From an uncultured Pseudomonadota bacterium (GTDB lineage Bacteria > Pseudomonadota > Gammaproteobacteria > Steroidobacterales > Steroidobacteraceae): a DNA stretch of 64,000 nucleotides. The stretch's first letter is position 1, and every line of letters begins with the position of its first letter. Below, piece after piece: positions 46,345 to 64,000 of the stretch. The translations under genes and the position numbers were made by a program. The stretch is taken from assembly GCA_903884105.1 (NCBI GenBank), contig CAISDJ010000141.1:1-64000 (forward strand), in the 5' to 3' direction. Under the pieces are notes generated by a model. The model searched no databases. It was not told the DNA's origin and worked only from the letters and a program-made list of their open reading frames with translations.

Positions 46345-47271
46345 ATGACCCTCCTCCACGAACGACGACGTTTCCTGCTCAGCCTCGCGGCCGGTGTCGC
46401 GATGTCACAGGCACCGTTTGCCCTGGCCAGGGCTCAGTCTCGTCGCGCTTCGCTCGCCTCGACTCCCCTTCCAGGTGGGCTGATCCTGATCAGCGGCGCC
46501 GGCGGCAACGTGGTCGTTGGGCACGACGGGGAAGGCGCGCTGATGGTCGATGGCGGCACAGCGGACCGGGCACGTGACCTGGAAATGCTCGTCCTGCGGG
46601 AAACCGGTGTAAAGCGCGTCCACACACTCATCAACACGCACTGGCATCCGGAGCAGACCGGATCCAATGAGCGCCTCGGCAAGGCGGGCGCGAAGATCAT
46701 CGCGCACGAGAACACCCGGCTCTGGCTCACCGTGTCGAATCCGCTGGTCGGTCAATCGGGAACCTACGGCCCCCTGCCTGCGGCCGCCCGCCCCAACGCG
46801 ACGACTTACGCAAACGGGTCACTGCGTCTTGGCGCCGATCAGGTCGACTACGGCTACCTGCTCCAGGCCCACACGGACGGCGACCTTTATGTGCACTTCC
46901 GGCAAGCGAACCTGCTCGTTGCCGGGGACGTCGTGTGCAACGACGGCTGGCCGGTCATCGACTGGCGCACCGGCGGCTGGATCGGTGGCATGGTGGACGG
47001 CCTCACGAAGCTGATTGCCTTGAGCGATGCCACCACTCGCATCGTGCCGGGCCGGGGACCGCTCCTCACCCGTTCCGATCTCGAAGTCCAGCGAACCCAG
47101 TACGCAACGATTTTTGAACGCCTCGAAGCGCTGCTGCGGCAAGGCAAGGGACCGGACGAAGCCCTGGCCGAGAACCCCACGAAGGAATTCAATGCCGAGC
47201 AAGGCGATCCGACGCAGTTCGTCACGCTCGCCTTTGAGAGCATGTGGGGACACTACGCTCCCAATGCTTGA
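46345..47271 (+). CDS. Tat-exported metallo-beta-lactamase-fold protein with altered metal site
   Basis: A 308 aa protein with a twin-arginine signal (HERRRFLLSLAAGVAMSQAPFALA). The fold is clear: LMVDGGTADRARDLEMLVLRETGVKRVHTLINTHWHPEQTGSNE, AHTDGDLYVHF (176-186) and LVAGDVV (Asp at about 195). The HxHxDH motif, however, reads HWHPEQ (99-104), so the second-metal ligands Asp and His are Glu and Gln, and the last ligand position reads GRG where GHG is usual. It may bind a single metal or have a non-hydrolytic role. A cytochrome c gene follows on the same strand. Confidence 0.82.
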   Translation: MTLLHERRRFLLSLAAGVAMSQAPFALARAQSRRASLASTPLPGGLILISGAGGNVVVGHDGEGALMVDGGTADRARDLEMLVLRETGVKRVHTLINTHWHPEQTGSNERLGKAGAKIIAHENTRLWLTVSNPLVGQSGTYGPLPAAARPNATTYANGSLRLGADQVDYGYLLQAHTDGDLYVHFRQANLLVAGDVVCNDGWPVIDWRTGGWIGGMVDGLTKLIALSDATTRIVPGRGPLLTRSDLEVQRTQYATIFERLEALLRQGKGPDEALAENPTKEFNAEQGDPTQFVTLAFESMWGHYAPNA

Positions 47272-47339
47272 TCCCGCTTTCATCAACCTGCTCCGCGCTC
47301 GCGCAGGCGAGCCCCACCCTGCCCATTGTGAGTAGAGCC

Positions 47340-48101
47340 GTGTCGACACGTTCACTGCATCCGCTGATCCTCTCTGCCTTCGCGATCGTCATGTTGCCGG
47401 GTCTGCTCGGGCACCGTGCACTCGCTGCCGACGCACCGCTGGTACGCTCGGTCTGGGACGGCGCCTACACCACCACGCAGGCCGCACAGGGCGAGAAGCA
47501 ATATCAGCAGATCTGCCAGCGATGCCACGGCACCGACACGCGGGCCGGCGAGGAAGTCGCGCTGTGGGGCGATGACTTCTGGAAGAGCTGGCGCGAGGAC
47601 ACGCTCGACAACCTGTACCACTACGTCAGCGCCAACATGCCGAACGACGAACCGGCCACGCTGAAGACCGATCAGTATCTCGACGTGATCGCGTACCTGC
47701 TCAAGAAGAACGGACTGCCTGCGGGCGAGGCAAGACTCACGGTGGCGAACTCAGCGGGGGTCCACATCTACGCGAAAGAAGGTCCCGGCGTGCTGCCAGC
47801 GGAGACCATGGTAGAACTCGTCGGCTGCCTCGCGAAGCTCGACAAGGGGTGGCAGCTCGTCAATTCGAGCCACCCGGCGCGCGTCAAGTCAAAGCAGGTA
47901 TTGCGAGCCGAGAACGAAAGGGCCGAACCGCTCGCGGGTGGCCCGGCGATGCCGCTCAAGTTCGTGATGACCAAGCTCGACAGCTATGTCGGCAAGGTCA
48001 TGACGGTGCGCGGCATGCTGATCGGCGAAGGCGGCCGGGAGGGCATCAACGTGATGACCACCCAGCCGTCCGCCGATTCCTGCGACGCGCCGCAGTCCTA
48101 G
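47340..48101 (+). CDS. Monohaem cytochrome c with a C-terminal beta domain
   Basis: A 253 aa secreted protein, GTG start at 47340 (GTG at 47328 is an alternative). The signal peptide is STRSLHPLILSAFAIVMLPGLLGHRALA. The cytochrome c domain has CQRCHGTD (about 60) and a probable Met ligand in SANMPNDEPATL. Beyond residue 130 a second domain (VELVGCLAKLDKGWQLVNSSHPARVKSKQ... SYVGKVMTVRGMLIGEG) looks like an OB-fold-like beta barrel. It follows the altered metallo-beta-lactamase-fold gene; its C-terminus overlaps the convergent VOC gene by 4 bp. Role: probable electron acceptor, unproven. Confidence 0.8.
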   Translation: MSTRSLHPLILSAFAIVMLPGLLGHRALAADAPLVRSVWDGAYTTTQAAQGEKQYQQICQRCHGTDTRAGEEVALWGDDFWKSWREDTLDNLYHYVSANMPNDEPATLKTDQYLDVIAYLLKKNGLPAGEARLTVANSAGVHIYAKEGPGVLPAETMVELVGCLAKLDKGWQLVNSSHPARVKSKQVLRAENERAEPLAGGPAMPLKFVMTKLDSYVGKVMTVRGMLIGEGGREGINVMTTQPSADSCDAPQS

Positions 48102-49177
48102 CGCGCCGGAGCAACGGGAACTGCAGCGGCTGGCGGCCGCGGCATCGATGCCTGGAACAACATGCCGTTCGGATCGCGGATCCAGCTGCTGCGGGCATCC
48201 GCTGGCAGCGTTGCCGACGTCTCGCCCACTCCGATCGTGCCGCCATTCGCCTTCGCCGCGGCGATCACGGCAGGGAAATCCTGCACGGTCATCGGCATGA
48301 TCGGCCCACCCGGATCCTGCACGCGATGACGGATCGGGTGCTGGTTCGGGCCCGTGAATTCCTGGAAGCGGATCTCGGGACCTGCGCCCGGGAACGTGCC
48401 TCGTGCCATGCGTACCGTCTTCAATGACTTGTCGTTGAACAACTTGATCATCGAATCCGGTGGTGCAGCCGCCTTGGCCGGCGCCGGCATGTTGAAGCCG
48501 AAGGTGCGGTTGTAGAAGGTGACGGTCTGGTCGAGGTCTTTCACCGTCAGGTAGAAGCTGATGGTGCCGACCTTTGCGGGCGCCGCCACCGGCGTGGCCC
48601 CTCCTTCGACGAACTCGATGATGAAGCCGTTGTGCTCTCGAAGCATGACAGCGCGGTTCTTCGTGCCGTCGGCGCCGGTCCTTTCGATGGGAGCGCCGCC
48701 TTCGGTCAGCACCGTCAGCCCGAGCTTCTTCGCGCCGGCCACCAGCTCGTCGATGCCCCTCACGTTGATCGCGAGCATGATCTCGCCCGGGTCCTGGATG
48801 CGGGGCTGCTGCGGATTCACCTTGATCCCGTGCCACTGCACGAGCTCCATCTTCCACGGACCGCCCGGAACCTGCAGCACGACGGTCTGCAACAGCGCGC
48901 CGGGCTCGTCGACCAGCTGTTTCATTTCACGCGGCGCCGCGGGCGGCGTGACGACTTCCATGCCGAGCAGGTCGCGGAACACGGCCAGCGACTGCTCCAG
49001 GTTCGCGACGTTCAGGTGGAGAAAGCTGACCGTGAGCGTGCGCGGCCCGGCGGGCACCGCGGCTGCGGGTGCAGCGGCTTGCGCATGCACAGCTGAGACG
49101 GCAGCGAGACCGACCACTGCAGTGGCGCAGGCCGCCTGCAGTGGTCGAGACAGCCATTGAGTCTTCAGGAATTCCAT
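48098..49177 (-). CDS. Secreted protein with two VOC (glyoxalase-fold) domains
   Basis: A 359 aa protein with a signal peptide (MEFLKTQWLSRPLQAACATAVVGLAAVSAVHA). Two vicinal-oxygen-chelate modules follow: FLHLNVANLEQSLAVFRDLLGMEVVTPPAAPR ... MLAINVRGIDELVAGAKKLGLTVLTEGGAP and ISFYLTVKDLDQTVTFYNRTFGFNMPAPA ... PMTVQDFPAVIAAAKANGGTIGVGE. This is the layout of extradiol-type or glyoxalase-type enzymes exported to the periplasm. Metal ligands cannot be assigned with confidence. It faces the cytochrome gene convergently. Confidence 0.85.
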   Translation of the reverse strand: MEFLKTQWLSRPLQAACATAVVGLAAVSAVHAQAAAPAAAVPAGPRTLTVSFLHLNVANLEQSLAVFRDLLGMEVVTPPAAPREMKQLVDEPGALLQTVVLQVPGGPWKMELVQWHGIKVNPQQPRIQDPGEIMLAINVRGIDELVAGAKKLGLTVLTEGGAPIERTGADGTKNRAVMLREHNGFIIEFVEGGATPVAAPAKVGTISFYLTVKDLDQTVTFYNRTFGFNMPAPAKAAAPPDSMIKLFNDKSLKTVRMARGTFPGAGPEIRFQEFTGPNQHPIRHRVQDPGGPIMPMTVQDFPAVIAAAKANGGTIGVGETSATLPADARSSWIRDPNGMLFQASMPRPPAAAVPVAPAR

Positions 49178-57468: not shown

Positions 57469-57918
57469 TCACTCCGGCTTGTTGCTGATGATCTTGACCG
57501 GCGACGACGTCACCAGCTGCGGATCGAGCGCCGCGGTCCCGGCTGGAAAGCCATCCACTTTCAGAATGTAGGCCACGACGGCGGCGAGCTGTGGCCGGGA
57601 CAGCGTGCCCGGCTTGTCGACGGGCATCGAGATGCGAATGCGTTCGGCGAGATCGGCGATCGTCGTGCCGCTCCAGTTGGCATTGAACTGATCACCTGTC
57701 AGCGGCGGCGCGGACTCGACTCCACCGAGCGCCGGGCCGTGGCACAACGCGCACGTCGTCGCATAGATTTCTCGGCCGCGCTCGGCTTGCTCGGCATTGA
57801 AGACGCCATCCCATACGGTCGGACCACCTTGCGCCACAGCGCCCGCGGCCACGAGGCCGGCGAGGCCCATCACGAACAGCGTACGACGCCGGCCGGGCAA
57901 TGAAGGTCTCTTGTTCAT
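57469..57918 (-). CDS. Periplasmic cytochrome c, monohaem
   Basis: A 149 aa protein with signal peptide (MNKRPSLPGRRRTLFVMGLAGLVAAGAVAQ) and one haem site, CALCHGPALGG (about 55). The probable axial Met is in RISMPVDKPGTLSRPQLAAVVAYILK. It follows the PQQ dehydrogenase gene almost without a gap (GTG alternative at 57933 lies 2 bp after that stop), so it is probably the electron acceptor for the quinoprotein. The start codon is uncertain between 57918 and 57933. Confidence 0.88.
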   Translation of the reverse strand: MNKRPSLPGRRRTLFVMGLAGLVAAGAVAQGGPTVWDGVFNAEQAERGREIYATTCALCHGPALGGVESAPPLTGDQFNANWSGTTIADLAERIRISMPVDKPGTLSRPQLAAVVAYILKVDGFPAGTAALDPQLVTSSPVKIISNKPE

Positions 57919-57935
57919 CAAGTTCACTATCACTG

Positions 57936-59945
57936 TCAGTTCGGCAAGCGGAAGGCCATGAGCTCGCCACTGTACGTGCCGCCACTGATCGCAACGACAA
58001 TGTACTGCTTGCCGTCCATCATGTACGTCATCGGCGAGCCGGTCTGCGGAGCCGGCATGTACACGGCGCCGACGTCAGCGCCCGTTGCCTTGTCGTACGC
58101 ACGGAGCATGGCGCCGCGCTGGCCCGTCGGTGTGGTCGCGAACCCGCCTTCGCCGGCAATCACGAGCGACTTGGTCACCAGCGTGCCGATGCGGCCCGTG
58201 CGGCCGGTCCGTGGAATCGTCAGTCCCTTGAGCGCCGGATGATTCTTGATGTTGTCCGGCGTATCGCCGTGGGCAATCTGCCAGACGATATCGCCCTTGT
58301 TGAGGTCGATGGCCGTGATCCGTCCGTACGGCGGCTTCACGAGCGGCAGCCCGCGCACGGTCACCTGCGGGGTGGCGTCGCCATCGACGCCTGCAGCAGC
58401 GCCGCCAGCGGGGACGCCCGGATCGGTTGCGGTCCCGAGCACGAACCGCATGTCGCTGGTGCCGGCCGCAGGCGGCACGAGCCCGACCGGCGAGATCCCG
58501 GTCACCGAATAGATGTAGTACATTTTCGTCTCGGGATCGAACGCACCGCCCTGCCAGTTGGCACCGCCGGTGATCGACGGCAGCATCAGCGTACCGAGCG
58601 GGCCCGGGAAACGGCTGACCACGGGCGGCGTGAAGATCGGCCCCATCTTGTAGCGCGACGCGACCTGCAGCGCTTCGGCACGCAGCTCGGGCGTGAAATC
58701 GATGAGATCGTCAGTCGATACGCCCTGGCGATCGAATGGCGCCGGCTTGGTCACGAACGGCTGTGTCGCGCTGCTCTGCTCGAACGGGACGTCGGACTTT
58801 TCCACCGGCCGTTCCTCGATCGGCCACACCGGCTTGCCGGTCACGCGGTCGAACACGTAGACCCACCCCTGCTTGGTGGCCTGTGCGACGGCTTTCACCG
58901 GCTTGCCGTCCACCACGATGTCCGCAAGGATCGGCGCTGCGGGAATATCGTGGTCCCAGACACCGTGGTGCACGAGCTGGAAGTACCATTTCATCTTGCC
59001 GGTGCGCAGGTCCGCCGCGACGAGGCTCTCGCCGTACAGCCCGTTGCCGGGACGATGCCCGCCGTAATAGTCGCCGGTCGGCAGTTCGACTGGCAGGTAG
59101 ACCAGGCCGAGTTCCTCGTCGACACTCATCTGCGCCCATACGCCGACATTGCCGGTGTTCTTGAGGGAATCGCCTTGCCACGTCTCGCTGCCGGGTTCGC
59201 CCGGGGCGGGCAACGTGTGGAAGATCCACAGCCGCTTGCCCGTACGCACGTCGAACCCGCGCACATAGCCCTTCTCGTTACGGAAACTCTTCGGACGGTT
59301 GCCGTTGCGGTGGGCCGCACCGATGATCACCACGTCCTTTGCGATCACCGGCGCGGCATGCAGGCCCACTTCGCCGGTATCGAGGTCCATGGTCTGGTCC
59401 GCGTCGAGCTTCAGGTCGACGACGCCGTTCTTGCCGAAGCGCTGCACCGGTATGCCTGTCTTCGCGTCGAGCGCAACCATCCGGTAACCCGGCGTCACGT
59501 AGAGGATGCGGGCTTCCTTGCCGTCGCTCCAGTACGCGAGGCCACGACCGGACAATTGCCGTGGCGCATTCTCGCCGCGCTTGCCTTCATTCTCGCTGTG
59601 CATCCACAACAGCTCGCCGGTGGCAGCATTCAACGCAACCACGGCGCGGCGCGTTCCCGCCGTCGAATAGACCACGCCGTCGACCATCAGCGGCGTCGCC
59701 TGGAGATTGAATTCCGGACGGGGGCCGAGCGCATCGGTCTTGAATCGCCAGGCCACTTCGAGCTGGTTGAAGTTGCCCTTGTTGATCTGGTCGAGGGGCG
59801 CATACCGCGTGCTGGCCAGATCGCCGCCGTACGTGCGCCACTCACCGTTGGCCGCTCCCTTCTGGGCCGAAGCCGGCAAGGAGATGATCGCGAGCAGCGA
59901 TGCAAGCAGGGGCAGGTATTTGGTGACCATGGAGTGCGTTCGCAT
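57936..59945 (-). CDS. PQQ-dependent dehydrogenase (quinoprotein, membrane glucose-dehydrogenase-like)
   Basis: A 669 aa periplasmic quinoprotein. After a signal peptide (MRTHSMVTKYLPLLASLLAIISLPASAQ) the eight-bladed propeller opens GEWRTYGGDLASTRYAPLDQINKGNFNQLEVAWRFKTD and contains GRGLAYWSDGKEARILYVTPGYRMVALDAKTG, the signature of the soluble/membrane glucose-dehydrogenase-like group, and PIEERPVEKSDVPFEQSSATQPFVTKPAPFD. It lacks the five N-terminal helices of classic mGDH, so it is soluble. The substrate (alcohol, sugar or other) cannot be told. The downstream cytochrome c is the likely acceptor; an FMN hydroxyacid dehydrogenase lies upstream. Confidence 0.9.
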   Translation of the reverse strand: MRTHSMVTKYLPLLASLLAIISLPASAQKGAANGEWRTYGGDLASTRYAPLDQINKGNFNQLEVAWRFKTDALGPRPEFNLQATPLMVDGVVYSTAGTRRAVVALNAATGELLWMHSENEGKRGENAPRQLSGRGLAYWSDGKEARILYVTPGYRMVALDAKTGIPVQRFGKNGVVDLKLDADQTMDLDTGEVGLHAAPVIAKDVVIIGAAHRNGNRPKSFRNEKGYVRGFDVRTGKRLWIFHTLPAPGEPGSETWQGDSLKNTGNVGVWAQMSVDEELGLVYLPVELPTGDYYGGHRPGNGLYGESLVAADLRTGKMKWYFQLVHHGVWDHDIPAAPILADIVVDGKPVKAVAQATKQGWVYVFDRVTGKPVWPIEERPVEKSDVPFEQSSATQPFVTKPAPFDRQGVSTDDLIDFTPELRAEALQVASRYKMGPIFTPPVVSRFPGPLGTLMLPSITGGANWQGGAFDPETKMYYIYSVTGISPVGLVPPAAGTSDMRFVLGTATDPGVPAGGAAAGVDGDATPQVTVRGLPLVKPPYGRITAIDLNKGDIVWQIAHGDTPDNIKNHPALKGLTIPRTGRTGRIGTLVTKSLVIAGEGGFATTPTGQRGAMLRAYDKATGADVGAVYMPAPQTGSPMTYMMDGKQYIVVAISGGTYSGELMAFRLPN

Positions 59946-59994: not shown

Positions 59995-61206
59995 CTACTT
60001 GCGTCGCATGATGGCGACAGGCGTGATTTCCTTGAGCGTGCGCGCGCCCACCCCGCCCATCGCAATACGCAGCTCGGCATTCAGGATCGCGAGCACGCGG
60101 TCGACGCCGGCTTCACCAAAGGCACCGAGGCCCCAGATATACGGACGTCCGATTCCGACAGCGTTCGCACCCAGGGCCAGCGCTTTCAGCACATCGGATC
60201 CGCGCCGTACGCCGCCGTCGACGATCACGGGAACCCGGCCGCGAACGGCCGGCACGATCTCGACCAGCGCTTCGAGCGTGCCGCGGCCCGTATCCTGCGC
60301 GCGCCCGCCGTGATTCGACACGATGATGCCATCGGCGCCGTGCTTGAGGGCGAGAACCGCATCTTCGCGCGTTTCGAGACCCTTGATCAGGACCTTCATC
60401 TTCGTCATGTCCTTGAGGCGCTTGACGAAGTCCCACGTCAGCGACGGCGAGGTCATGTCGGTGCCTTCTTCCATGTCGATGCCATCGAACATCGGCCGGC
60501 CGCCGCGATCGGAACCTGTGGGACCATGGCAGCTCGTGCAGACCCGGTTGTCGATGCGCAGGAATCGCGTAGCGGTCTCCATGTTGCGGCCAGCTGCCCG
60601 ATCTACCGTCACCGCCACGACCGGACATCCGGCCGCCTCGGCCCGCTTCACCAGCTTGACCGTAATGTCTGGCCGCGTGGTCGTATACAGCTGGAACCAC
60701 ACCGGCGCCCCGCGCGCCTCGATCACTTGCTCGACGCCCGTGGAGGTCGATGTCGAGAGGATCTGCAATTGGCCCCGGGTCTTGGCGGCCCGCGCCACCG
60801 CCAGCTCGCCGTCGACGTGGAACGACCGCTGCCCACCGACGGGAGAAATCACGATCGGACTGTTGTACTTCGTACCGAAGAGCTCGACGCCGAGGTCGAT
60901 CCGGCTCACGTCCACGAAGCGCCGCACGCGCAACTGGTACTCGGCGTACGCCTGTTCATTGGCGCGCAACGTGGTCTCGCCGTCCACGCCGCTCATCATG
61001 TAGCCCCAATGCGCGGGCGGAATCGTCCGGCTGGCGACGGTTTGCATGTCGAAGACATCAAGGGCCTCTGCCGCGCTGGCAGTGGCCCTGGCAAAGGCCC
61101 GTTCCGTCGGTGTCGGTGTCTGGGCCAGCACGTCGGGTATCCAGCCCGCGCCCGCCAGCAGCGGACTGCCGGCCAGAAACTGAAGAAACGCCCGACGATG
61201 CGTCAT
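59995..61206 (-). CDS. Tat-exported FMN alpha-hydroxyacid dehydrogenase with a CxxCH motif (putative flavocytochrome)
   Basis: A 403 aa enzyme of the glycolate oxidase/lactate dehydrogenase family. A twin-arginine signal (MTHRRAFLQFLAGSPLLAGAG) directs export. Catalytic and FMN residues are kept: Tyr 69 (HWGYMMSG), Tyr 174 (WFQLY), Asp 202 and Arg 207 (TVDRAAGRN), Lys 275 (LIKG), His 299 and Arg 302 (VSNHGGR). At 223-227 lies CTSCH, a covalent haem-c motif, in the flexible loop after strand 4 where flavocytochrome b2 has its protease-sensitive hinge-side loop. It is encoded amid periplasmic cytochromes and a PQQ enzyme. Electron exit through this haem is inferred. Confidence 0.85.
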   Translation of the reverse strand: MTHRRAFLQFLAGSPLLAGAGWIPDVLAQTPTPTERAFARATASAAEALDVFDMQTVASRTIPPAHWGYMMSGVDGETTLRANEQAYAEYQLRVRRFVDVSRIDLGVELFGTKYNSPIVISPVGGQRSFHVDGELAVARAAKTRGQLQILSTSTSTGVEQVIEARGAPVWFQLYTTTRPDITVKLVKRAEAAGCPVVAVTVDRAAGRNMETATRFLRIDNRVCTSCHGPTGSDRGGRPMFDGIDMEEGTDMTSPSLTWDFVKRLKDMTKMKVLIKGLETREDAVLALKHGADGIIVSNHGGRAQDTGRGTLEALVEIVPAVRGRVPVIVDGGVRRGSDVLKALALGANAVGIGRPYIWGLGAFGEAGVDRVLAILNAELRIAMGGVGARTLKEITPVAIMRRK

Positions 61207-61660: not shown

Positions 61661-63313
61661 TCAGCTACCTGAGCCGCTTGCGGTTGCAACCTCGACAGCA
61701 GACTGCGCAGCCGTACTTTCGTAGTAGCCCACGAACGTGCGCGTCTCGGGCGCGTCGTACTGCTTCAGGTTCTGTGCCCAGCGGTAGCCGATGGACTGGA
61801 ACCTGAGCTCCGCCTTCACGGCCAGCGGGCCGCTCGCCGTGCCCGTCTCGATGTCGAAGCGCACGCTGTCGCCGCCGCCCGCAAAGTCGGCATCGTCCGC
61901 CGCCTCGCCTCGCACCAGCACATCCTCGGGGGCCCGGGCCTTGTCGAAGCCCCTTGGCAACAGCCGGTTGTCCTTGGCGAAGCGCAGGCCACTCAGCAGG
62001 CTGGTGGTCACCCGTCCATTCGCGTCAACGATGATCGACTCGTACACCTGCACGTCGTCAGCGCTGCGGATGACGTCGTGGTGCGCTTCGAACCGTGCCG
62101 CATCCTCGTCGTTGTCATTGCCGACGATGGCGCCATCGGTACGCTGCGCGCCGGACTCGAACACGACTTTGCCCGTCGCATCACTGACTGTGACATGCAG
62201 CCATGCGCGGCGCGACGGATACGCGGTCGGGAACTTGTGACCGGACAGGTTACGTACGGTAACCGAAAATTGCACCCTGGTCCCGGCGCGCGCCACGGGG
62301 CTCACGCCGAGAGCAGCGGTGCGGGTCTTCAGGAACGTCTCGGTGCGCAGCGCCGACGCCTCGAGTTCCTGCGGCTCTGCGACGATGCCGAGGTCCGCGC
62401 GATACTTGTTCAACAGCCGCAGCATGTAGGCATTGCCGCCGACAAACACATGCTGCGACACGTGGGTTCGGGGCTGGCCGAGGGTCGCGCTGACCGGCAC
62501 GGCCGTCGCAACCACCGGCATGTGGCAGGCCTGGCAGCTGTCGGTCTGTGCGTACGCGCTCTGCTGCCATTCGATGTAGGGCATCTGCTCCGGCAACTCG
62601 CCCACCACCTTGCCCGCACTGTCGAGCGCCGCCGTGTACAGCGTGTGGCAGGTCGCGCACAGCTCGGACTGGCGAACGTGCAGGGACTCGGTCGGCACGA
62701 ACTGCTCCGTGCTGGAATGCATCACGCGCTGGCGCCCCGGATCCACCGGATACGGGCCGTAGACGGGACGACCCGCGGGCGGGCTCTTCGGGTCGATGAC
62801 GTAGCCACCGTCAAAGCTGTCGCGCTTGCCGAAGTTGTCAGGCTTGATCTGGTGACAGACGGTGCAGGTCACGCCATCCAGTTCCAGATGCACCGAGGCC
62901 GGATCCTTGGTGGCAGCTTCGAACAGGGCAAACAGCTGCGGCGGCTGCCCGGCTGCCACCGCGGCGGTATGGGCAACCGGCAAGTGACACACGGAGCAGC
63001 GGTCCTCGATGGCCGCGATCGCCGTCGGGTGTTCAATCGCCTCGCGCCGCACGCCCGCTCTCCAATACGGATCGCGGGCCGATAGCGCCATCATCGTCGC
63101 CCGCCACTGGTAGCCAAACGACATGTCCTGTCCTGACGGCGTGGTCAGGTTGCTGTGGCAGGCGATGCAGCGTTCGCTCTCGACGAACAGGTGCGACGCA
63201 TCGGCCGGCATGGCCTGCTGCGGCGCCGGCGCGGCGGCAGCATCGCCCCGGGTTCCCAGCTGTACTGCCAGCAGCAGGCACGGAACGAGCCATCGCCATC
63301 GGGACTTCTGCAT
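61661..63313 (-). CDS. Periplasmic pentahaem cytochrome c
   Basis: A 550 aa protein with signal peptide (MQKSRWRWLVPCLLLAVQLGTRGDAAA). Five CxxCH motifs lie in the first 270 residues: CIACH, CSVCH, CTVCH, CATCH and CQACH, in NrfB/NapB-like multihaem spacing. The remaining part (about 300-550) is a beta-sandwich domain without haem motifs. It is an exported electron carrier or terminal reductase subunit. It opens the closely spaced series of leftward genes that includes the FMN and PQQ dehydrogenases, and is divergent from the lipoprotein cytochrome at 63402. Confidence 0.88.
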   Translation of the reverse strand: MQKSRWRWLVPCLLLAVQLGTRGDAAAAPAPQQAMPADASHLFVESERCIACHSNLTTPSGQDMSFGYQWRATMMALSARDPYWRAGVRREAIEHPTAIAAIEDRCSVCHLPVAHTAAVAAGQPPQLFALFEAATKDPASVHLELDGVTCTVCHQIKPDNFGKRDSFDGGYVIDPKSPPAGRPVYGPYPVDPGRQRVMHSSTEQFVPTESLHVRQSELCATCHTLYTAALDSAGKVVGELPEQMPYIEWQQSAYAQTDSCQACHMPVVATAVPVSATLGQPRTHVSQHVFVGGNAYMLRLLNKYRADLGIVAEPQELEASALRTETFLKTRTAALGVSPVARAGTRVQFSVTVRNLSGHKFPTAYPSRRAWLHVTVSDATGKVVFESGAQRTDGAIVGNDNDEDAARFEAHHDVIRSADDVQVYESIIVDANGRVTTSLLSGLRFAKDNRLLPRGFDKARAPEDVLVRGEAADDADFAGGGDSVRFDIETGTASGPLAVKAELRFQSIGYRWAQNLKQYDAPETRTFVGYYESTAAQSAVEVATASGSGS

Positions 63314-63401
63314 CGGGAGTTCGCTTGAGAGTGTTCTTTGATCCTGCCGCATGGGCAATGTTAGCCTAGGCGCACCTGTCCCAAGAAGTAGAATCACTGC
63401 C

Positions 63402-64000
63402 GTGACCCGCGCTCCCTCGCCTCTCTTGCCTGCCTTCCGCTATACGGCAGGCGCGCTATGCACGCTGCTGGTGCTGGGCATCGCGGGCTGCATCAGCAGC
63501 GGCGGCGAGCCGAACAGCACGAATGCAGCCAAACTGGCCCTCGAGCGCGGGCCCCAGTCGGGCAGGCAGCTGTATGAGAACAACTGCGGCGCCTGCCATG
63601 GGGCGGACGGCAAGAGCCTTCCCGTCACGCAGGTGGGATTCGACTTTCCGCTGCCGGATTTCACGGACTGCGGCTACAACTCCCCCGAGCAGTCAGCCGA
63701 CTGGGTGGCGATTGCGCACGAGGGCGGGCCGATCCGCGGGTTCACGCCGATCATGCCCGCGTTCGGCGACGCGCTGACCGCCGAAGAACTGGAGAAGCTC
63801 GTCACGTATGTGCGCGACTTCTGCGCCGACAAGCGCTGGCCGCGGGGCGAGCTGAATTTCCCCGCGCCGCTGTTCACCGAAAAGGCCTTCCCGGAAAACG
63901 AAACGCTGGTCAAGAGCGTCCGCGACAAGGACGGCAGCAGCGAGACGCAGCTGATTTACGAGCATCGCATCGGCGCCCGCGACCAGTACGAAATCACGGT
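63402..64000 (+). CDS. Lipoprotein cytochrome c, 3' end beyond the window
   Basis: The gene starts at GTG 63402 and is still open at the right edge (199 codons seen). The signal peptide ends LVLGIAGC (lipidated Cys at about 30), so it is membrane-anchored. The haem motif is CGACHGADG at 62-66, with a possible axial Met in PIMPAFGDALTAEELEKLVTYVRDFC. Beyond residue 140 (PRGELNFPAPLFTEKAFPENETLVKSVRDKDG) a second domain begins that is cut off. It is divergent from the pentahaem cytochrome gene. Confidence 0.85.
   Translation, partial: MTRAPSPLLPAFRYTAGALCTLLVLGIAGCISSGGEPNSTNAAKLALERGPQSGRQLYENNCGACHGADGKSLPVTQVGFDFPLPDFTDCGYNSPEQSADWVAIAHEGGPIRGFTPIMPAFGDALTAEELEKLVTYVRDFCADKRWPRGELNFPAPLFTEKAFPENETLVKSVRDKDGSSETQLIYEHRIGARDQYEIT

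Follow-up and report, generated by a model that had tools for sequence, protein, structure and literature searches.

A candidate single-chain flavocytochrome with a haem-c motif in loop 4 among the FMN-dependent alpha-hydroxy-acid dehydrogenases

The window, which is the whole stretch of 64,000 nucleotides analysed here, comes from an uncultured Steroidobacteraceae bacterium and encodes on its minus strand (59995-61206, from ATG to stop) a 403-residue FMN-dependent alpha-hydroxy-acid dehydrogenase with a twin-arginine start and a CxxCH motif in loop 4. In a Pfam profile search, FMN_dh (PF01070) matched residues 58-399 at 1.2e-110, and the match is full-length, with 370.3 bits against a cut-off of 24.9 and profile positions 1-348 of 350 covered. 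Of the NCBIfam models matched by the protein, none scores above its curated cut-off, the best being PRK11197 (215.7 bits against 376), and the named members (LldD, L-lactate oxidase, MftD) likewise stay below theirs, which makes it probable that proteins of this kind go under generic names. At E 0.001, neither an N-terminal cytochrome b5 domain (PF00173) nor a cytochrome c domain was matched in the protein, only barrel families being found. An AlphaFold2 model built with 76 aligned sequences has a mean pLDDT of 90.6 and a pTM of 0.88, the corresponding values for a model of L070, a Bradyrhizobium member, are 86.7 and 0.85, and the predicted fold of the window protein matches glycolate oxidase (1gox) with a Z of 45.9 and an rmsd of 2.0 A over 345 residues. 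Among the matches listed, fold searches with the model gave known-family members only, and a haem-c name is absent from the matched chains among the 60 of 68 and 60 of 106 listed. Two further copies are present in the same genome, at 60% identity (with CVTCH) and 53% identity (with CDSCH).

As the first-pass annotation had proposed, the active site is of the glycolate oxidase type and intact. Y69, Y174, D202, K275, H299 and R302 align with the active site of spinach glycolate oxidase (phmmer alignment to 1gox), in what we take to be the same roles, and in the 76-row alignment A2 the last five are each present in 76/76 rows and Y69 in 73/76. The conserved active site points to an L-2-hydroxy acid as the probable substrate, oxidised to the keto acid, and the protein should oxidise hydroxy acids. 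Glycolate oxidase and hydroxyacid oxidase (1gox, HAO1) have the fold and most active-site residues in common with the 403-residue protein, whereas in the spinach enzyme the loop lacks CxxCH, Trp108 stands in place of S153, and the loop Arg seems to lie at a different position. S153 is presumably the counterpart of Trp108 (1gox alignment, with the Trp108 numbering that we take to apply), and this position is V, Q, A, S, G or T in 73/76 rows of A2; because it is so variable, substrates may differ between branches. An extract of PMC10153336 describes an 'invariant R164' (GOX numbering) in the family. Its equivalent appears to be displaced here: the stretch from +3 to +8 of D202 holds exactly one Arg in 76/76 rows of A2, at +5 in 62 (the 403-residue protein among them), at +7 in 10 and at +4 in 4, and the Arg of GOX lies at +7 after the Asp, counted on the 1gox alignment. 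This spacing of Asp and Arg, which is 4, 5 or 7 residues depending on the member (residues 203-209), gives the impression that loop 4 was re-threaded as the haem motif came about.

The haem-c attachment motif CTSCH occupies residues 223-227 (60526-60540, minus strand; codons 60540-60526), just where it had been noticed before. The first-pass annotation was right to place it after TVD, which closes beta4 and is followed by the motif-bearing loop, but wrong to call that loop hinge-side, as the site is barrel loop 4, between beta4 and alpha4. Loop 4 comprises codons 203-257 (60436-60600, minus strand), between D202 and W258, in the 1gox and clade alignments, and corresponds to the loop 4 that an extract of PMC10153336 describes as flexible and as contributing to catalysis. 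A longer loop 4 is given, in an excerpt of PMC8491902, as a mark of mandelate dehydrogenases and lactate monooxygenases. The length in the CxxCH clade is not unusual (median 55, and 54 in relatives without twin arginine). The AlphaFold2 model has pLDDT 71 to 89 in the ten-residue blocks covering the loop and a short predicted helix at 224-227, that is, at the CxxCH; in the L070 model, a three-residue helix (236-238) coincides with the first three residues of its CxxCH. The only residues of 203-257 that never vary in A2 are D219, C223, C226 and H227, and the x positions of the motif vary freely (AS, TS, SA, TD, SD, SG and others).

A first search of the protein's own genome and others, 98 genomes in all, gave 19 loci with CxxCH. 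In an alignment of 17 complete CxxCH loci, the window's included (A1), the rows are 45-62% identical to the window protein, and C223, C226 and H227 are invariant though the surrounding loop varies. Since these 17 proteins were picked for having the motif, the fair test is a species-wide scan, in which one genome per species (84,980 species) was searched with peptide patterns outside the loop and the best 80 of at least 590 relatives were kept. CxxCH is present in loop 4 in 80/80 of these best 80, so the conservation among homologues that the first-pass annotation had proposed as a check was borne out. The pooled CxxCH proteins form 95 clusters at 95% identity, and 95/95 have exactly one CxxCH, against about 0.0013 expected per protein from composition; as the clusters are defined by having the motif, the unbiased count is that of the scan. 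On these counts, the CxxCH is not there by chance. The titles of the scan records name Alpha-, Beta-, Gamma- and Deltaproteobacteria, Acidobacteria, Gemmatimonadetes, Rokubacteria, Marinimicrobia, Latescibacterota and an Opitutaceae bacterium, and, the records being mostly metagenome-assembled genomes, serve as a rough guide to phylum.

A maximum-likelihood tree of 64 CxxCH proteins and 25 others was built without loop 4 and the N-terminus. A branch with support 100/98 separates the 64 CxxCH proteins from the 25 others, the next group (93/71) consists of three twin-arginine proteins without CxxCH (L024-L026), and 22 relatives without the twin-arginine pattern lie outside (100/99). L024-L026 resemble the clade in having RR near the start, in their 42-46% identity and in their place on the tree, L026 (RRTFTGG) having been missed by the automatic pattern and assigned by eye. 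They differ from it in a shorter loop 4 (46-48 residues against the median of 55) and in having neither CxxCH nor the clade's His66. Their own His lies two residues past the His66 place, at column 68 (WHF, IHY, YHF), where A2 has G (70) or A (6). No close homologue without CxxCH was found inside the clade, the motif-less L024-L026 falling outside it, and homologues of the same context that lack the motif, which would have told against a haem site, were likewise not found within the clade. The simplest order of gain would be export first and haem motif second, with no loss in the sample.

The protein starts with a predicted twin-arginine signal peptide of about residues 1-32 (61111-61206, minus strand), the end of which is a guess, and residues 4-5 are RR (MTHRRAFLQFLAGSPLLAG). 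As in Tat substrates, the twin Arg is followed by a hydrophobic stretch: RR is conserved in 76/76 rows of A2, the stricter pattern RRx[FL][LMIVF] plus a polar or small residue in 74/76, and AxA occurs downstream in 64/76. The twin-arginine pattern is present in 100/104 CxxCH loci, the other four (L008, L018, L042, L102) being without an N-terminus in the frame used. The twin-arginine signal claimed earlier thus holds up, and the protein is probably exported; CTSCH and the RR start together give the CxxCH in an exported protein that is a feature of c-type cytochromes, the export itself being predicted. Its own genome contains TatC, and the cytochrome c assembly family PF01578 is matched three times in it. 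PF01578 is found in 50/50 carrier genomes tested (out of 80), 96/98 relatives and 196/200 phylum genomes, and because it is near-universal, its co-occurrence has no power and indicates no more than the availability of the machinery. For a Tat-type protein, a haem-c motif is unusual. The cytochrome c maturation system is generally assumed to work on chains that are still unfolded, which fits badly with Tat export of a folded protein. According to an extract of PMC8112865, the bacterial synthase CcsBA can load haem in vitro onto CXXCH peptides of as few as 9 residues, a reaction that depends on both thiols and the His but not on the neighbouring helix; CcsBA being a maturation type other than Ccm, this makes haem attachment to an exposed loop plausible at most.

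Columns that mark the clade were identified by comparing the 64 CxxCH rows with the 25 others and keeping those with a residue fixed in 93% or more of the CxxCH rows and in no more than 25% of the others. These are V51, H66, D75, R96, D219, C223, C226, H227 and F363, of which C223, C226 and H227 come out by construction because the rows were labelled by CxxCH, so that the other columns alone are informative. His66 (codon 61009-61011, minus strand), the candidate distal (sixth) haem ligand, is H in 64/64 clade rows and 0/25 outside, and in 76/76 rows of A2. D219, which lies in the loop four residues before the first Cys, is found in 62/64 clade rows against 0/25 outside, and R96 and F363, each fixed in all 64 clade rows, turn up in 3 and 1 of the 25 rows outside as well. 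By conservation, His66 is the best motif-tracking residue elsewhere in the protein, albeit not the sole candidate of interest, since V51, D75, D219, R96 and F363 also mark the clade. In the AlphaFold2 model it lies within helix 64-72, with Y69, the aligned counterpart of Tyr24 in glycolate oxidase, three residues further on. The equivalent residue of flavocytochrome b2, Tyr143, touches a haem propionate, although a literature search found no paper with this contact; if it is right, the His66/Y69 side would be the approach side of the b2 haem. Because it tracks the motif, sits by Y69 on its helix and may face the haem side of b2, His66 is likely the sixth ligand, and a bis-His haem c would lie next to the substrate tyrosine Y69, enclosed by loop 4 and the helix of His66. 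Met239 was also considered as distal ligand; it is M in 16/17 rows of A1 (L in L022) but in only 58/76 of A2 (N 13, I 3, A 2), and was dropped in favour of His66.

The same four residues, C223, C226, H227 and His66, might instead bind Zn or another metal as a clamp on loop 4, with quinone or oxygen as the enzyme's electron acceptor, as in its relatives. The joint conservation of two Cys and two His would allow a Cys2His2 site, and Tat exports folded, metal-loaded proteins. Nevertheless, this seems unlikely: the His right after the second Cys, fixed in 80/80 of the best 80 of at least 590 relatives, is the signature of haem c, and neighbouring Cys and His residues seldom serve as ligands of the same Zn. 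Moreover, the motif occurs only with a twin-arginine start where the N-terminus is readable (100/104), whereas a structural metal would not need export.

The next gene downstream encodes a PQQ-type dehydrogenase (57936-59945, minus strand; PQQ PF01011, 1.6e-186), a possible operon partner that begins about 50 bases past the stop of the FMN gene if its start is at 59945, a start at 59930 being also possible. It is followed by a single-haem cytochrome c gene (57469-57933, minus strand; Cytochrome_CBB3, 5.6e-13), a possible electron acceptor. A genome of the same genus (G001) keeps the PQQ gene at 91% identity (L008). A PQQ dehydrogenase relative lies near the clade gene in 6/134 other loci (L008, L073, L086, L088, L106, L113), counted at 42% identity or more over at least 424 residues in the fetched flank, which is only about 1.5 kb for genome-search loci; some loci repeat one another, and the weaker L055 and L100 are not counted. 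In L073 and L106, the PQQ gene is downstream of the clade gene in the same direction and within 400 bases. These neighbours hint at a two-step periplasmic oxidation, from alcohol to hydroxy acid to keto acid. L073, L086, L088, L106 and L113, with titles of Gammaproteobacteria, Pseudomonadales or Pseudohongiella, have one PQQ dehydrogenase gene or two in tandem.

No conserved neighbour emerged from ORF clustering around 81 loci, a lossy procedure, since its greedy selection of ORFs gathered the FMN gene itself into a single cluster at 64/81 loci only. From adjacent same-strand ORFs, 114 were picked by length and codon GC and 71 were submitted to Pfam, mostly short ones being left out by hand; among the 25 of 70 families listed, no family is shared by more than 4 of the 71 ORFs (TctC top). 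Neither the 81-locus clustering nor Pfam on the 71 adjacent ORFs found a cytochrome gene as a generally conserved neighbour. The enzyme looks like a stand-alone module feeding whatever soluble cytochrome is present. Elsewhere in the window, a multihaem cytochrome with several CxxCH lies two genes upstream of the FMN gene (61661-63397, minus strand; weakly ExtKL-like, 36.7 bits against a cut-off of 250), adjoined by the start of another cytochrome c gene (63351-63998, plus strand). The ORF list also has a cytochrome-like ORF with CQRCH (47244-48101, plus strand) and, opposite it, an ORF that begins with a signal-like stretch and resembles a two-domain glyoxalase or dioxygenase (48098-49177, minus strand).

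That a partner cytochrome gene is not generally conserved would also fit a haem c that is bound but acts as a sensor or an oxygen-reducing site and not as electron exit. Against this, loop 4 is the very loop credited with a contribution to catalysis (extract of PMC10153336). Enzymes of this family, moreover, need an electron acceptor, and we regard such a role as very unlikely. Least probable of all is that the two Cys form a disulfide ordering loop 4 in the periplasm with no haem, since, although exported proteins often use disulfides and twin-arginine relatives without the motif exist, the fixed H227 and the co-fixed His66 would be left unexplained.

Our preferred reading, which we consider quite probable, makes the 403-residue protein a periplasmic flavocytochrome in one chain, a member of the FMN alpha-hydroxy-acid dehydrogenase family with haem c in loop 4 as the electron exit. 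The compact periplasmic flavocytochrome proposed in the first-pass annotation is supported at the level of sequence, with loop 4 as the site, one clade as its extent and His66 as the proposed second ligand. The barrel would bind FMN in the cytoplasm, and Tat would then export the folded protein, as the conserved RR suggests; a periplasmic cytochrome c maturation system would attach one haem c to the loop-4 CxxCH near the active site, with H227 as the proximal ligand and, judging from conservation, His66 as the likely distal one. FMN would oxidise the L-2-hydroxy acid to the keto acid and pass electrons one at a time to haem c, which soluble periplasmic c-type cytochromes would reoxidise. In a more far-reaching form, to which we give an even chance, this is a widespread branch of hydroxy-acid dehydrogenases in which loop 4 is a minimal haem-c unit with a distal His66 from the substrate-side helix, and in which the protein crosses through Tat folded and with FMN and receives haem only afterwards, so that haem c would be attached to an already folded enzyme.

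One of the nearest known parallels is flavocytochrome b2, the yeast L-lactate:cytochrome c oxidoreductase (EC 1.1.2.3), which has the FMN_dh barrel and the conserved active site, as here, and whose hydroxy-acid:cytochrome c reductase activity we infer for the 403-residue protein. Flavocytochrome b2 carries haem b in a separate N-terminal cytochrome b5 domain and resides in the mitochondrial intermembrane space, whereas here a haem-c motif in loop 4, which would do the job of that domain, is combined with a twin-arginine start. Its single haem has His/His ligation, as proposed here, and it is given as an FMN case in a review of cytochrome-carrying enzymes (PMC6472588, in excerpt). (S)-mandelate dehydrogenase of Pseudomonas putida (1huv, 1p4c) is in the same family as the 403-residue protein. 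Its loop 4 reaches the membrane, and we know of no haem motif in it. Its acceptor is quinone (excerpt of PMC8491902), and in contrast to this membrane and quinone route, the 403-residue protein would use soluble cytochrome c. Our literature search found no haem-c member of the FMN_dh family by title or opening abstract, which, subscription journals lying mostly outside its scope, is weak evidence of novelty.

If our reading is true, this clade, which spans several phyla, represents a second and far more compact joining of an FMN hydroxy-acid dehydrogenase to cytochrome c, and the label 'oxidase' would be wrong for its proteins. Such a protein may hand electrons straight to periplasmic cytochromes, and would be a natural small enzyme for direct electron transfer. 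It would also make testable whether the cytochrome c maturation system works on a loop of a folded, Tat-exported protein.
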